From contig NZ_CP030082.1 in NCBI RefSeq assembly GCF_006874645.1, positions 1,488,001 to 1,552,000 on the forward strand: 64,000 nt of DNA, written 5' to 3'. Source of the DNA: Bdellovibrio sp. ZAP7 (GTDB lineage: Bacteria > Bdellovibrionota > Bdellovibrionia > Bdellovibrionales > Bdellovibrionaceae). Positions within the stretch are counted from its first letter, which is position 1. Each line of letters opens with the position of its first letter. Under the pieces are notes generated by a model that had not been told where the DNA came from, did not search any database, and was given only the letters and a program-made list of their open reading frames with translations. This document shows positions 52,984 through 59,052 of the stretch, piece by piece. A program made the position numbers and the translations under genes.

Positions 52984-53577
52984 ATGACTTACAATCCACG
53001 CGATAGATACTTTAAAAAAGCAAAAGAAGAGGGCTTTGCCGCTCGTTCTGTTTTTAAGCTTGAAGAGATCGACAAGAAATACAAAATTTTTAAAGGCAGT
53101 GGCCAGACCGTTTTGGATTTGGGTGCTTCGCCAGGCTCGTGGTCTCAGTATGCCTCAAAAGTCGTAGGAGCCAAAGGGCGCGTGTTGGGTGTGGATTTAA
53201 GCCCGGTGACGGTCAAGTTGCCAAATGCTGTATTTATCCAAGCCGATCTTCGTGATTTGAACCTGGAAGACACTTTCCGTGATCATGGATTCCATCCTCC
53301 GTTTGATATAGTGATGTCTGATATGGCGCCTAAAACAACAGGCATCCGTATGACTGACCAGGCTCGTTCCATGGAGCTGTGTGAGCTGGCGTTGGATGTG
53401 GCTCGCAAGTTTTTAAAAAAAGACGGACACTTTGTTTGTAAGCTTTTTCACAGCGATGACTTTGCCAAGCTTCGTGAGGAAATTAAAAAGTCCTTTGCTA
53501 AATGTGAAGTGATGAAGCCAGATTCCACACGCAAAATTTCTAAAGAGATCTTTTTGATCGGTCTTAATAAAAAATGA
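52984..53577 (+). CDS. rlmE: 23S rRNA 2'-O-ribose methyltransferase RlmE (FtsJ/RrmJ)
   Basis: The 197-residue protein shows the full RrmJ pattern: YNPRDRYFKKAKEEGFAARSVFKLEEIDKKY (first catalytic Lys), VLDLGASPGSWSQYA (SAM site), VMSDMAPKTTG (Asp), FVCKLF (second Lys) and STRKISKEIFLIG (Glu), so the K-D-K-E set is complete. The enzyme methylates the 2'-O of U2552 of 23S rRNA in the large subunit, late in ribosome assembly. Its stop overlaps the start of the pseudouridine synthase gene by 4 bp, so both RNA-modifying enzymes are made together. Confidence 0.93.
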   Translation: MTYNPRDRYFKKAKEEGFAARSVFKLEEIDKKYKIFKGSGQTVLDLGASPGSWSQYASKVVGAKGRVLGVDLSPVTVKLPNAVFIQADLRDLNLEDTFRDHGFHPPFDIVMSDMAPKTTGIRMTDQARSMELCELALDVARKFLKKDGHFVCKLFHSDDFAKLREEIKKSFAKCEVMKPDSTRKISKEIFLIGLNKK

Positions 53578-54251
53578 TTCAAATCGTTTTCGAAAACTCC
53601 CATTTCGTGATCTGCGATAAGCCGGCAGGGGTGCTTTCCACTCCCAGCCGTATGGGAGCTGAAGACGAGCGCAATTGCCTAGGCATTGCTTTGCAAAAGC
53701 AATTGGGGCTGCAAATCTATCCTGTCCATCGCTTGGATTTTGAAGTGTCAGGTTTGGTGATGTACGCGAAAACGGCGGAAGCTCATCGTAAAGCCAATGC
53801 GTGGTTTGAACACAAACAAGTCAGTAAAACCTATCGTGCTTTGACAACTGCTCAAGATTTTTCTCATATTCCTGCGAATGTTAAAAACCCGCGCGAGAAA
53901 TTCACCGTGGCCACCGGACGGAAATTTGAATGGAAGTCGCGCATTCTGCGGGGCAAGCGCCGCGCCTTTGAAAGCCCTGAGGGCAAAGACTCTTTGACGC
54001 TGGCAGAGTATTTGGGAACGAATGCTGACGGTTTCTTGCAATGGGATTTGCAGCCGGTGACGGGTCGTTCGCATCAATTGCGCTTTGATTTAAGCCGCCA
54101 TGGTTTTCCGATTGTGGGCGATGCTTTGTATGGATCTAAAGTTCCAGGCGAAGGCAAAGACGCGATCGCCTTAAGAGCGTACAAGATTGATTTTAGCAAA
54201 GCCCCTGGTCACCAGGAGCTTCAACTTCCCGGTATTATTCAATTGGCCTGA
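53574..54251 (+). CDS. RluA-family pseudouridine synthase
   Basis: The 225-residue protein has FENSHFVICDKPAGVLSTPS, the catalytic motif VHRLDFEVSGLVMYAKT (Asp in HRLD), and QPVTGRSHQLRFDLSRHGFPIVGDALYG. It is a compact RluA type without an S4 domain, and makes pseudouridine in rRNA or tRNA; the target position is not evident. The HRLDFEVSG reads DFE where many family members have DTSG, a small but notable variation. It is translationally coupled to rlmE (ATGA overlap), and its end overlaps the convergent heme-motif gene by 13 bp. Confidence 0.88.
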   Translation: MIQIVFENSHFVICDKPAGVLSTPSRMGAEDERNCLGIALQKQLGLQIYPVHRLDFEVSGLVMYAKTAEAHRKANAWFEHKQVSKTYRALTTAQDFSHIPANVKNPREKFTVATGRKFEWKSRILRGKRRAFESPEGKDSLTLAEYLGTNADGFLQWDLQPVTGRSHQLRFDLSRHGFPIVGDALYGSKVPGEGKDAIALRAYKIDFSKAPGHQELQLPGIIQLA

Positions 54252-56146
54252 GAGATCGGTGCCACGGCTTTCTTAGGATGGCCGTCGACGCGGAACTGGA
54301 ACAAGAAGTAAGGCGGCACACATGAACCGCGATTGCTTTCAAAACTTTCCGCACAAATATAGTCATCACGGCAAGGGTTCAGCTGATCACAGCCACGCAG
54401 TCCCACTCCTAACGAGTATTCTTTTAAACAAGCGTCAAAGTTTTTAGTCCCGATACAAGCGTTGAAACCTGGGCGTGCGGCTGGCAACGGACCACAGCTG
54501 GCTTCCGCTGGTAAGTTGTCACAGCTAAGCGTTCTGACGTTACCGTTTAAGAAACCACCAGTGCGTGTGCCAGGCATCTGACTTTGTGGCGAGCACATCG
54601 CGTTTGGAAGTGTCACAGTCAGCTTGTCAGAGGTGCGGATGTATTTATCCTTACCGAAAGCAGTCGTCACGATTTTACCCATCTCGCATGGATCGCCGAC
54701 TTGTTGAGTTTCGGTCAGGCAAATACCTAAGCCCAAGCTGTCTTCTTTTTCTAACAGAGTTTTGCAAGTAAGGCCTTGAGCGCATGTCCAACCACTGAAG
54801 GATGGATCTTTGCCTGTCGAGCAGTGTGCGCCCCAACCATTCATCAAGCCCGTACCGATAAGTTTTTGCGAACGACGCTCCTGAGGGCGGGCGGCGAAAC
54901 CGCGGGAGTAATCAATCTTTTCATTGCGAGCAAAAGCATCGATGATTTCGCGACGACGAGCCAGGTCCCCCATAAAGTGGGCAGAGCCCGGAAGGAAGAC
55001 AGAGTTGCCGGCGTATTTGCCTTGAGGATCACGGCCCGTGAAATGAAAGCCACCGATCGCACGCGTTTGATGGCAACCCACGCAAGTGGATTCATTCAGG
55101 CGGCGCAAAAGTGCCGTGCCAGATTTGATGTTCTCAAGATCCTGCGATTTAACTGAGTCTGTTGCCGTAGATGGCAACAAACCATAGAACAGACGATTGC
55201 CAGAACGGTTGATTCCGCCGGGAGCAATTGAAATAGCGCTTTTCGCCAAAAACTTTTTTGGCAGAATCATCGTGCCGTCATCAATTGTTTTCAGGTTCTG
55301 TGGATTTTTGATCCACTCCACAAGTTCATTCATAAGGGCGGGATCCGCCTGCAAGCGAGCGCGGTCGATTTGGTTTTCCAAAGTCGTTTCTGCGAATCCT
55401 TTGCCTGTCCACTCGTAAGCTTTTAGCAGGTATTCTGCATGCCCACCAAAATCAGGACGCTCAGACGCAGCCATGCGTGAGATCTGCATATTGATCTCTA
55501 GATCTTTTAACTGGGATGGAATGAATACCGATGGATTCAAGGGGCCAGACGTTAATACATCCTGAGCGGTGGATTCAGAAGTCACTGTCTGCCAACGTTG
55601 GGCAATACCCAAACAACCTTGCTGAGAGATTCTGCTGCCTTGGTGCAAAAGCAAATTGATCGTGATCGGCAAACGGGAAGCTACGTTCACACCTTGGCTT
55701 TCCACGTTATAGGCCAAACGATAGATGAAACGAATTTCACCGCAGTAGTTTGGATTTTTATAGCCCACGTCCATGCGATTGATCACGCCGACCAACGCAA
55801 AACGGGCGCGGGCGTGAGTAAGGTAATTCAAATCGAAAAGTCTTTGTCCAAAAGCCAAACCCACCCCAGAAGCAGGATTGTTCTTTTGATAGATATCCAT
55901 TTCAGTTCGTAAACTGTCCAAAATCACTTTGAAGTTGGTTTTGGAAAGAACCGAATTGTCCACCACGCCTAATTTCTGACCTGGATTTACCAAGTCAGCC
56001 AAAGCGAATCCTTGGGCTTCGAGGGATTTTAATACCTCGGGCTTAGAAATGCTTAAAGCATTTTCTAAATTTTCCCCAGCCACAGCTTGTACCGTGACTG
56101 CCGAAAAAACTAAAATCGCAAGAAGGCGTAGAAGTGATTGAGTCAT
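54239..56146 (-). CDS. Exported protein with single CxxCH motif and Cys-rich tail
   Basis: I start at MTQSLLRLLAILVFSAVTVQAVAG, one base after the upstream stop, with GGATGG as a likely ribosome binding site. The 635-residue protein has one heme-type motif, STCVGCHQTRAIGGFHF (about residues 355-359). The Cys-rich C-terminal 200 residues contain CSTGKDPSFSGWTCAQGLTCKTLL, CGPLPAARPGFNACIGT and CDQLNPCRDDYIC, which resemble disulfide-rich binding modules. The N-terminal 340 residues are unassigned but have ARFALVGVINRMDVG and EIRFIYRLAYNVESQG blocks. It is the last gene of a four-gene operon with two Tat-type proteins and a caspase-like protein. Covalent heme attachment is likely but not certain. 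Confidence 0.75.
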   Translation of the reverse strand: MTQSLLRLLAILVFSAVTVQAVAGENLENALSISKPEVLKSLEAQGFALADLVNPGQKLGVVDNSVLSKTNFKVILDSLRTEMDIYQKNNPASGVGLAFGQRLFDLNYLTHARARFALVGVINRMDVGYKNPNYCGEIRFIYRLAYNVESQGVNVASRLPITINLLLHQGSRISQQGCLGIAQRWQTVTSESTAQDVLTSGPLNPSVFIPSQLKDLEINMQISRMAASERPDFGGHAEYLLKAYEWTGKGFAETTLENQIDRARLQADPALMNELVEWIKNPQNLKTIDDGTMILPKKFLAKSAISIAPGGINRSGNRLFYGLLPSTATDSVKSQDLENIKSGTALLRRLNESTCVGCHQTRAIGGFHFTGRDPQGKYAGNSVFLPGSAHFMGDLARRREIIDAFARNEKIDYSRGFAARPQERRSQKLIGTGLMNGWGAHCSTGKDPSFSGWTCAQGLTCKTLLEKEDSLGLGICLTETQQVGDPCEMGKIVTTAFGKDKYIRTSDKLTVTLPNAMCSPQSQMPGTRTGGFLNGNVRTLSCDNLPAEASCGPLPAARPGFNACIGTKNFDACLKEYSLGVGLRGCDQLNPCRDDYICAESFESNRGSCVPPYFLFQFRVDGHPKKAVAPISQAN

Positions 56147-56147
56147 A

Positions 56148-57326
56148 TTACAGACCATCCGCTTGCAAGGCTCTGAAACCATTTAGCAGGTGCAGATATT
56201 CTTGCGCCAGAGTGCTGGAGTTTTTAGACACCCGATTCGACACCTGGCAGGTGTGATCATCACAAGTCATCACCGATTGGCAGGACTTCATCGTGCAGCT
56301 CAATTGAGCATCATTCACCACAAATGAAACCAACATATTGCCTCGACCGGCTTCGATTTCAGCAAGGGCCTGGTAGCACTCGTCCACGGTTTTTCTCGTT
56401 TTATAAACAGGACACAACCATTCTTTGGCAACTTGGCTGAACTCTGCCGCGCTGGAGTTGCGTTGCAGGGATCTTTCCGCCAAGAAACCGTAAAGGGATG
56501 CCGCCATCGCTTTTTGACAGTCTCTTTCATTCAATTGACAGAAGAATTTGTAATGGCTTAGCAGGGGACCCTGGAAGTTACCCCATTTGCCGGCATAGTG
56601 AGAAAACATCGTGCGCATACGAAGGCAGCCACCTTCAGAACATTTCACATTCAAATCAGGATTGAAAGTCGCCCAATCCTGATTCGGAGCGCGGTTTTCT
56701 TCGTCGACATAAAAGTGACCGTCGCTGTGCAGACGCTCAAAACGAGTGCCGGTGAAAGAACCCGCCACCGCGATATCCCATTTGTTGGAAAGGCTTTGCG
56801 CATTCAACCAACCGCTGTTGCATCCATGAATGATCGCAAAGGCGTCGGAAGCAAAGTGGCTCGCAATGGAGGCCACGATGGGCTCGCGGAAATCAAAACG
56901 GAATCCCAAGCCATCTGCTTGAGTGCCCAATGACGGGGAGTTGTGCCCAAAGAATTCCAAGGAACGTATGTTGTTGAATTTAAGAATCTCTTTCGAGCCA
57001 GATTGTGTTTCAAGCTTCACGTCATTGCTAGTTACGAATGTCCAACCGCTTTTGGAAAGGTTTGCAGCGTTGTTGGCATTCTCTAAAACTGAAATCAGAA
57101 CGATTTGATCTTGAGGAAAGTTACGCTTGTAAAGTTGTGCACGTCCCAAGGCTGTCAATTGGGGTTGAACGCCTAAGTCAGTCCCGCGGCCCGACAACAA
57201 AATTCTGACGCTTTTATTATAGTCGATGGGACCTTGCTGTGTCGGTACGGCGATAAAATACGCTTGCGCTGGGGACAGCGTCGTCAAAGAAATAAAGAAT
57301 GCGAAAAGTGCGAAGAGGGTTTTCAT
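56148..57326 (-). CDS. Exported caspase/CHAT-like protein (predicted His-Cys peptidase)
   Basis: A signal peptide (MKTLFALFAFFISLTTLSPAQA) leads into a 370-residue protein. The segments VRILLSGRG, IRSLEFFGHNSPSLGTQADG (His128) and AFAIIHGCNSGWLNAQSLSNKWDIAVAGSFTG (Cys169) follow the clan CD peptidase pattern: strand-His, then a strand ending in a Cys with small residues and a Gly. The spacing and the paired 'GH' and 'HGCNSG' blocks resemble caspase-like/CHAT domains. The remaining 200 residues are Cys-containing and unassigned. Neighbours on both sides are separated by 1-2 bp. This is an inference from motifs, without an alignment. Confidence 0.6.
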   Translation of the reverse strand: MKTLFALFAFFISLTTLSPAQAYFIAVPTQQGPIDYNKSVRILLSGRGTDLGVQPQLTALGRAQLYKRNFPQDQIVLISVLENANNAANLSKSGWTFVTSNDVKLETQSGSKEILKFNNIRSLEFFGHNSPSLGTQADGLGFRFDFREPIVASIASHFASDAFAIIHGCNSGWLNAQSLSNKWDIAVAGSFTGTRFERLHSDGHFYVDEENRAPNQDWATFNPDLNVKCSEGGCLRMRTMFSHYAGKWGNFQGPLLSHYKFFCQLNERDCQKAMAASLYGFLAERSLQRNSSAAEFSQVAKEWLCPVYKTRKTVDECYQALAEIEAGRGNMLVSFVVNDAQLSCTMKSCQSVMTCDDHTCQVSNRVSKNSSTLAQEYLHLLNGFRALQADGL

Positions 57327-57328
57327 AT

Positions 57329-57787
57329 TTATTCCTTTGTCGCTTGTTTGCGAATTGTTGCTAATGTCATCGGGGAGGCCGAGATTAAAAAATTATGAAC
57401 GTAATTTCCCGCTGCCGAGATCACGCGGACTTCCACGTTTTTTTCACCACCCGCAATGGCCAAAAGTTTGGCTTGGCTGATTTTGACATCGTGGGAATGT
57501 GTGCTGAGAGCTTTAGGATCCAGGTGGCTTTGTCCGATAAAGGTTTTAAAGCCTTCAACGTCATAAGAATCCTGATCCACTGGAGTTGTCTTTAAAACAA
57601 TTCCGTCAGCAGGTGGTTGGATCAGGGCTTTGATCGGAATCGTTAAAGAATGAAAGTGTTCAAAAAACGGAGAGTCTTGAGTCTCGACAGAGAACTCGCC
57701 CACATGAGCAACGCAAAGAGAACCCATCTCAGCCGAAAAAGCTGTGAAGTTGTTCAAGTTAAGGAAGTCGCGACGTGAAAGACCCAT
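57329..57787 (-). CDS. Tat-type exported protein, paralog B
   Basis: I start at MGLSRRDFLNLNN, a twin-arginine motif, four bases after the stop of the paralog before it. The 152-residue protein has the same layout as its neighbour: a conserved EHFHSLTIPIKALIQPPADG block, DQDSYDVEGFKTFI, LDPKALSTHSHDVKIS, IAGGEKNVEVRVISAAGNYVHNFLISAS. The hydrophobic part of the signal (NNFTAFSAEMGSLCVAHV) is weak for a Tat peptide. So export may be lost, or may occur with the paralog ('hitchhiker'). His residues in EHFH and HSHDV are conserved between the two and may bind metal. Function unknown. Confidence 0.65.
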   Translation of the reverse strand: MGLSRRDFLNLNNFTAFSAEMGSLCVAHVGEFSVETQDSPFFEHFHSLTIPIKALIQPPADGIVLKTTPVDQDSYDVEGFKTFIGQSHLDPKALSTHSHDVKISQAKLLAIAGGEKNVEVRVISAAGNYVHNFLISASPMTLATIRKQATKE

Positions 57788-57791
57788 ATTA

Positions 57792-58280
57792 CTATTTTCC
57801 CGCACGACCGCGTTGAATTTTAACTTGGGCAGAACGAGACGCCGTAAAATAGAAATAGTGAGCGATGTTTCCCTTCGGAGTCATCACGGTGATTTTCACT
57901 TCTTTTTCGCCACTGGCAATGCGATCCAATTCATTCTTTGTGAAGGTGACTGAATGGGAATGAACACGAAGGCTTGCACCATCTAGGCCTGTCTCTTTGA
58001 TAAATTCATTGAAGGCTTTTTCATCCAGGGATGCCTGATCAAGAACACTTGTACGTGTTGTATAACCTTGTTCAGGGGGAGCAATCAAAACGGAAACTGG
58101 AATTGCCAGAATATGAAAGTGCTCATAGCGAGCAAAGTAAGTTGCTTCCGCAGTGACTTGATCCATGCGAACCAGGCATGTGTCATCAGCTTTGGCCGCT
58201 TCCACTGCAAAGGACCTATTAGACAAGGCTAAGGCTGCGCCCGCCACTGTGGCATTTTTTAAAAAGTTACGTCTGTTCAT
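57792..58280 (-). CDS. Tat-type exported protein, paralog A
   Basis: I start at MNRRNFLKNATVAGAALALSNRSFA, a good twin-arginine signal (RRNFLK, then a modest hydrophobic stretch); a frame extension to 58343 begins with TTG and is rejected. The mature domain (about 135 residues) has YEHFHILAIPVSVLIAPPEQG, DQASLDEKAFNEFIKETGLDGASLRVHSHSVTFT, ASGEKEVKITVMTPKGNIAHYFYFTAS, sharing these blocks with paralog B. It is the first gene of the operon with B, the caspase-like protein and the CxxCH protein. The beta-sandwich-like ending is reminiscent of small Tat-exported accessory proteins, but no known family is recognised. Confidence 0.7.
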   Translation of the reverse strand: MNRRNFLKNATVAGAALALSNRSFAVEAAKADDTCLVRMDQVTAEATYFARYEHFHILAIPVSVLIAPPEQGYTTRTSVLDQASLDEKAFNEFIKETGLDGASLRVHSHSVTFTKNELDRIASGEKEVKITVMTPKGNIAHYFYFTASRSAQVKIQRGRAGK

Positions 58281-58389
58281 AGGAATGGTTTTACCAGACG
58301 TCCTAGGAACCAGATAATTGTTTCGGTTTATAGTGGTGCCCAATGGTTACCACGAAATAAGTACATAGGGGTGGCTAAGAGTTCGACAC

Positions 58390-59052
58390 CTAGATTTCGC
58401 GCTTAATCTGCGCCAGGTAAGACTTGATGAAGGCCACCCGATGTTCAGCTTCTTTTTTAGCGGTCTCAGTGTTCAGGTGGTCCATCAATTTAAAGAGTTT
58501 TTGATAGAAATGGTCGATGCCATAGTTTTTATCATCCAGATCACGCTTTTCAGCCCAGGGGTCTTCTTCAGAATAAAAAGGACGGCTCATCAGCGAGCTC
58601 GTTGCAAAACAGCGGGCAATACCTATGGCTCCCAGGGAGTCCAGGCGATCGGCATCTTGAACGATTTTAGCTTCGAGCGTTGTGGGCTTTATGTTGGCAC
58701 TGTAACTGTGGGCTTCAATCGCATGACGAATATCTTCCAAGTACTGTTCTGGATAATCCACGGATTTAAGATACTCGACGGCTGCTTCAGCAGAAAGGGC
58801 CGAGGCATAGGGTCGGCGGGGATCACCTTTAGGCACGTTGATAAAGTCATGAAAGAACGCTGCTGGCATGACCACTTCCCAGAGACCGTGCTCAGCTTCA
58901 CATAAACTTTTAGCGGTATTGACGACGCGTTGAATATGCAAGAAATCGTGTGCAGGATCGGAACTGGGATAAAGCACACGGGCTTTATTCTTAAAGAGAT
59001 GGAACCATTTATTTTCGTCAAAGCTAGTTTGCGATTGATTCATGACTTCCAT
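58390..59052 (-). CDS. HD-domain phosphohydrolase
   Basis: The 220-residue cytosolic protein has the HD pattern: DPAHDFLHIQRVVNTAKSLC, AAFFHDFINVPKGDP, EAKIVQDADRLDSLGAIGIARCF and a late HRVAFIKSYLAQI. It matches the YedJ-like group of small HD hydrolases, which act on phosphate esters such as nucleotides; the substrate is unknown. ATG at 59043 (three codons later) is an equally good start. It is 14 bp after the papain-like peptidase gene and about 110 bp before the Tat operon, so it may be the end of a separate unit. Confidence 0.8.
   Translation of the reverse strand: MEVMNQSQTSFDENKWFHLFKNKARVLYPSSDPAHDFLHIQRVVNTAKSLCEAEHGLWEVVMPAAFFHDFINVPKGDPRRPYASALSAEAAVEYLKSVDYPEQYLEDIRHAIEAHSYSANIKPTTLEAKIVQDADRLDSLGAIGIARCFATSSLMSRPFYSEEDPWAEKRDLDDKNYGIDHFYQKLFKLMDHLNTETAKKEAEHRVAFIKSYLAQIKREI

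Follow-up and report, generated by a model that had tools for sequence, protein, structure and literature searches.

What do four tightly packed genes for exported proteins contribute together to a predatory bacterium? We addressed this question for genes A, B, C and D in a 64,000-nucleotide stretch (the window) of the complete, 4.12-Mb genome of Bdellovibrio sp. ZAP7. Genomes are labelled by G-numbers, with G000 for the window genome and G022 for its closest relative. The best explanation, held tentatively, is that this four-gene cassette encodes an extracytoplasmic proteolytic module, in which a secreted clan CD peptidase, C, would act with the putatively metal-binding proteins A and B and the CxxCH partner D. 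An earlier reading of the DNA letters and translated open reading frames (ORF), the sequence-only reading, had described four minus-strand genes with 1-4 bp gaps, and coordinates, strand and spacing are as claimed. Taken in A-B-C-D order, neighbouring genes are separated by 4, 2, and 1 bp, with no terminator-like stem detected in a scan of these gaps. All four genes are under purifying selection, with ratios of nonsynonymous to synonymous substitution rates (dN/dS), relative to G022, of 0.033 (A), 0.140 (B), 0.025 (C), and 0.037 (D). The same reading knew of no named system with this gene set, and our searches agree. B, C and D have no scored match in Pfam and NCBIfam, where A is matched by its twin-arginine translocation (Tat) signal alone, and none of the four proteins has a match in PHROGs or to a PADLOC anti-phage defence model at E up to 0.1.

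The four-gene set is a real heritable unit. The A-B-C-D order is repeated in G022, a close Bdellovibrio, and in G219, which belongs to another family of the order. The G219 proteins share 59% (A), 52% (B), 59% (C), and 55-65% (parts of D) amino-acid identity with those of the window, and identities within this 52-65% range indicate that the four genes have diverged to a similar degree. A frameshift, perhaps an artefact of assembly, disrupts D in G219. In the same genome, A and B form one fused polypeptide of 300 amino acids (aa) with a single N-terminal twin-arginine (RR) signal (L092:5390-6292), i.e. a Rosetta-stone fusion. The cassette lineage thus consists of the window, G022, and G219; in G010 a C-D pair is seen, on a separate 3.2-kb contig beginning at C and at a location different from the window site. 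In phylogenetic trees, the cassette copies of C form a single clade (support 100/100), as do those of D (98/96; one group in 200/200 bootstrap trees versus rhizobial copies). Both clades share the same internal order, and stand-alone C and D of other Bdellovibrio genomes are placed outside them.

The insertion site is empty in the close relatives G011 and G021, in which the matches to the flanking RluA and HD genes are 16 and 21 bp apart. We read this as a gain of the cassette at the RluA/HD site in the G000/G022 lineage. The closest outside relatives of cassette D are rhizobial plasmid copies (100/99) rather than stand-alone Bdellovibrio D, which suggests that at least D has moved laterally, a lead only, given the long branches in this tree. 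A cassette that is laterally mobile or recurrently gained is part of the best explanation and shares its tentative standing. In G010 and G006, an ORF resembling a MarR-type regulator (by reading, with no profile hit) lies between the RluA and HD genes. Across the genus, this intergenic site (window 54251-58390, compared with L168-L171) is variable, harboring a MarR-like gene, nothing, or the cassette.

Table 1. Features of the cassette and its boundaries (window coordinates)
Feature	Position	Strand	Remarks
A, small Tat-exported protein, 162 aa	57792..58280	-	EHFH / HSH / HxF motifs, one conserved Cys; Tat signal scored; start ATG at 58280, stop at 57792
B, paralogue of A, 152 aa	57329..57787	-	SRRDFL N terminus; Tat plausible, unscored
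C, exported clan CD-fold cysteine peptidase-like protein, 392 aa	56148..57326	-	Dyad H128/C169; disulfide-rich C-terminal part
D, exported CxxCH protein, 635 aa	54239..56146	-	Single CVGCHQTRAIGGFHF motif (C355-H359, H368)
Left cassette boundary	54239..54251	.	3' ends of D and of the convergent RluA-type pseudouridine synthase gene (53574-54251) overlap
Right cassette boundary	58281..58389	.	109-bp intergenic region upstream of A, then HD-domain gene 58390-59052 (-)

The AlphaFold2 model of C, computed with 12 homologues, has a mean predicted local distance difference test (pLDDT) score of 83.8 and a predicted template modeling (pTM) score of 0.87. When this model was compared with known structures using VIA-align, the list of matches was filled by clan CD structures, including legumain-type (Z 10.5, root mean square deviation 5.1, 228 residues), glycosylphosphatidylinositol (GPI) transamidase (10.0), SAVED-CHAT (9.0), C11 (8.4), and caspase-6 (7.9). 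Foldseek listed a secreted C11 protease (0.99), legumain (0.87), and caspase-4 (0.84) as high-probability rows, with no match at E 0.001 or better. Because Foldseek alone gives no match, we base the fold on the VIA-align Z scores, coverage, topology, and an invariant dyad. The dyad residues H128 and C169 are each conserved in 46/46 homologues across the phylum, as are C229, C234, C305, C317, C344, and C349. In clan CD, the dyad His is found where the third core strand ends and the dyad Cys where the fourth does (PMC4357240), and in the model of C, H128 follows strand 120-126 while C169 follows strand 158-167. With legumain/asparaginyl endopeptidase (MEROPS C13), and clan CD in general, C shares the fold, strand order, dyad placement, dyad spacing (41 residues from H128 to C169), and export, its N terminus being an ordinary Sec-like hydrophobic stretch. 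Unlike legumain, to which it is only ∼10% identical, C has no Pfam match, its Cys usually comes after Gly, it has a disulfide-rich C-terminal part of its own, and its family is seen here solely in Bdellovibrionota and Bacteriovoracia. Searching 13 C members against Pfam at E up to 1 yielded neither a CHAT nor a caspase match, a PDB sequence-profile search with the C profile found nothing, and comparison with plasmids revealed no relatives. DUF4347 (PF14252), an initial candidate, was rejected, as its profile matched nothing in the bacterium's own genome at E up to 10. The caspase-like His-Cys protein that had been proposed for C is borne out by the modeled fold and the invariant dyad; the accompanying CHAT label, however, is loose, the best structural neighbours being legumain/asparaginyl endopeptidases. 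We conclude that C is predicted to be a clan CD-fold peptidase, probably active, from a family missing from the searched libraries.

Both A and B had been proposed to carry Tat signals. This holds for A, which scores above the cut-offs of TIGR01409 (28.6 bits, cut-off 16.7) and Pfam TAT_signal (23.2, cut-off 22.7), but is only plausible for B, which obtains a Tat score from neither library although it displays an SRRDFL motif and a best 13-residue stretch with a hydrophobicity of 1.18 (1.24 in A). The two proteins are paralogous as anticipated, with 33-35% identity and common EHFH, HSH, and H-x-F motifs plus a conserved Cys, and the His pairs of the A family are invariant in seven diverse members. 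Judged by sequence, A and B have diverged from each other as two copies within a family of small HxH proteins that is so far undescribed. Tat export suits folded, cofactor-loaded proteins, and the invariant histidines together with Tat export lead us to infer that A/B bind metal. A PDB sequence-profile search with the A profile gave only weak, chance-level matches. A single-domain relative of A in G274 (L159:1507-1857), a small Tat/lipoprotein with three HxH motifs, is apparently a member of a wider unannotated family. It has in common with A/B an RR signal and the layout HxH-V-x-I ... HxHTVTLT..QL..L..G..V ... DHDHTFTL, whereas A/B are distinguished by EHFH, HSH, a third site reduced to HxF, a longer insert, and a tandem or fused pair. 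In G225 (L094:777-2394), another single-domain relative is immediately followed by an exported papain-type (C1) ORF that is just below the Pfam cut-off. A-family matches in Bacteriovoracaceae-type (f12) genomes (G126, G143, G147, and G151) were discarded, since these apparent EHFH-type proteins proved to be fortuitous hits within an iron-sulfur, HdrD-like protein.

D starts, like C, with an ordinary Sec-like hydrophobic stretch, in keeping with the Sec signals proposed for these two proteins. Its other proposed features, a CxxCH motif and a Cys-rich tail, are likewise found. All 23 homologues examined, including those from Alphaproteobacteria, contain one CxxCH per protein, always as CxxCHQ...GFH(F/L/M). 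The sequence-only reading had made its case depend on conservation of the His-Cys pair and of CxxCH in orthologs, and it withstood both of these checks. The C-terminal domain is Cys-rich, with many invariant cysteines, and terminates in CVPPYFLFQFRVDGHP (PPYFLFQxRxDGHP in the family). At its haem motif, D shares the C-x2-C-H-x6-G-F-x5-D spacing of PSCyt3 (DUF1588, PF07627), a planctomycete-type cytochrome domain that is also present in the same genome. D differs from it in having no Pfam score, a His after GF, and a Cys-rich tail absent from the compared PSCyt3 stretches. No match was found in Pfam and PDB for 12 D members, nor in a PDB sequence-profile search with the D profile. The conserved motif suggests that D may carry one covalent haem. 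In G001, a D homologue (L021:8319-10055) is broken by a TAG stop and is likely to be a pseudogene or a sequencing error.

Within the phylum, C-type proteins are present in 72/369 genomes from 27 genera, with up to five per genome, D-type proteins in 21/369 genomes from 11 genera, and A-type proteins in about 8 of 369. C and D are mostly apart, each adjoining other exported genes, and many members of the genus are devoid of the cassette. On whether the genes are kept together, the neighbourhoods give a divided picture: this is so for all four in the cassette lineage and for C-D in G010, but most relatives have stand-alone C and D without A/B. It follows that "one system" is a valid description for the cassette lineage only. 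The spread of D and A beyond the phylum was assessed on plasmids. Homologues of D with 31-33% identity were found on plasmids of Rhizobium lusitanum, Pararhizobium gei, and Mesorhizobium (L101:8908-11226, L102:8608-11109, and L103:8656-11064), near GH25 lysozymes, an N-acetylmuramidase-domain gene, or peptidoglycan-binding ORFs, the latter beside the homologues in Rhizobium and Mesorhizobium. Plasmid scans with A and A-like proteins found none. Genome-wide and viral scans with A/B revealed no relatives, and there were none in phage scans with cassette DNA and with D, or when D was compared with viral contigs.

Other neighbourhoods were recorded as well. The gene after a longer D paralogue (L146:7495-11309 in G219:C260, and L025:7375-11048 in G029:C15) encodes a conserved secreted protein that bears a DDxHNHDGTH motif. 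This secreted protein contains, in G219, an M15 D-Ala-D-Ala dipeptidase domain (Pfam E 1.2e-38), which is lacking in the G029 homologue. In f12 genomes (L111-L118), C belongs to a conserved gene block that also encodes a lipoprotein and two exported proteins of ∼1000 aa, and in some Bdellovibrio (L060-L064) a stand-alone C has as neighbours an exported DUF7844/Lnb_N protein and a second, small protein that is secreted. The region immediately upstream of the window's cassette contains a papain-family gene (PF00112, 59067-59897) and a subtilase gene (PF00082, 61133-62119), which makes for a peptidase-rich neighbourhood.

How might these proteins work together? Co-inheritance as a unit, export signals on A, C and D, the fold and dyad of C, the motif of D, and the A-B fusion are the observations on which we build. 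In the proteolytic module that we favor, C would be a catalytically intact cysteine endopeptidase with a caspase/legumain fold stabilised by disulfides. A and B would be exported partners acting as a pair, as suggested by the single Tat-type polypeptide in a relative, and would hold metal via their HxH motifs. D would be a disulfide-rich CxxCH protein with one covalently attached haem that serves the module as an extracellular anchor or control element, probably at the cell wall or close to it. Peptidase activity, binding of metal and haem, and physical partnership are what we would expect of these proteins, and the module may be linked to predation or wall turnover. The sequence-only reading had also suggested redox-linked control; CxxCH is compatible with haem bound covalently, and a redox role is conjectural. 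A bolder version, which we regard as unlikely, is a new form of regulated extracytoplasmic proteolysis, with a caspase/legumain-fold peptidase that has a non-standard His environment, a Tat-exported metal-binding A-B that activates or scaffolds it, and a haem-bearing cell-wall-associated partner that gates it, all encoded by a mobile cassette.

Several points weigh against the proteolytic module. A Gly beside the catalytic His is conserved in all characterised clan CD families (PMC4357240), whereas in C position 129 is S/N/A in 45/46 homologues and Gly in 1/46, and position 127 is Gly in 22/46 only. The activity of C could therefore differ, and for this reason we describe it as a clan CD-fold protein rather than filing it in a named family. 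The model of A is of moderate confidence (pLDDT 70) and matches no known fold (best Z 2.9), which at such confidence is no evidence of a new one. The only tie of D to a known haem protein is a profile match to PSCyt3 with a probability of 55%, over 26 columns in the motif region alone. C and D are far commoner as stand-alone genes, so their partnership is not obligatory, and the link to peptidoglycan comes from a few neighbourhoods, none of which contains C or A/B.

Among the alternatives, the cassette could be chiefly a metal/haem redox unit, with A/B of copper or zinc type, D a monohaem cytochrome, and C only maturing or turning over its partners. The conserved HxH and Cys of A/B, the Tat export of A, the invariant CxxCH of D, and the PSCyt3-type cytochromes of the same genome would fit, but our searches found no recognisable cytochrome, cupredoxin, or oxidase domain, and the extensive family of C exists independently of the other cassette genes. 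We find this reading doubtful. Somewhat less probable again is that the cassette delivers a prey-directed enzyme, with C, aided by A, B and D, working in the prey periplasm during predation. C is widespread and duplicated in Bdellovibrionota and Bacteriovoracia, and Bdellovibrio is reported to deploy a prey-lytic protease (PMC12546842). The text of that paper, however, mentions neither a caspase nor a cysteine protease, no expression data were found for the A-D genes, and the absence of the cassette from much of the genus fits this idea poorly.

We consider it improbable that C acts not as a hydrolase but as a transpeptidase or ligase, fixing A/B or D onto the surface of the cell. Asparaginyl ligases and GPI transamidase share the fold of C and perform attachment, peptide asparaginyl ligases and GPI transamidase are among the closest structures (Z 10.0-10.2), and members of the D family lie near cell-wall enzymes. 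The same fold, however, serves hydrolases equally well, and stand-alone C genes have no A, B, or D partners. Least probable of all are four functionally unrelated exported genes acquired together and sharing a promoter by chance. The occurrence of C and D each alone in most genomes, and of A-type proteins without either, would fit, but the same order and similar divergence of the four in two families, the A-B fusion, the congruent clades, and strong purifying selection speak against it.

C represents a large exported family with a caspase/legumain fold across Bdellovibrionota and Bacteriovoracia that was missed by the searched profile libraries, so that predatory bacteria seem to possess an unassayed class of peptidases. 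D is a conserved haem-type protein, also present on rhizobial plasmids, that has been annotated only as hypothetical. The cassette offers a tractable four-gene entry to the C family.

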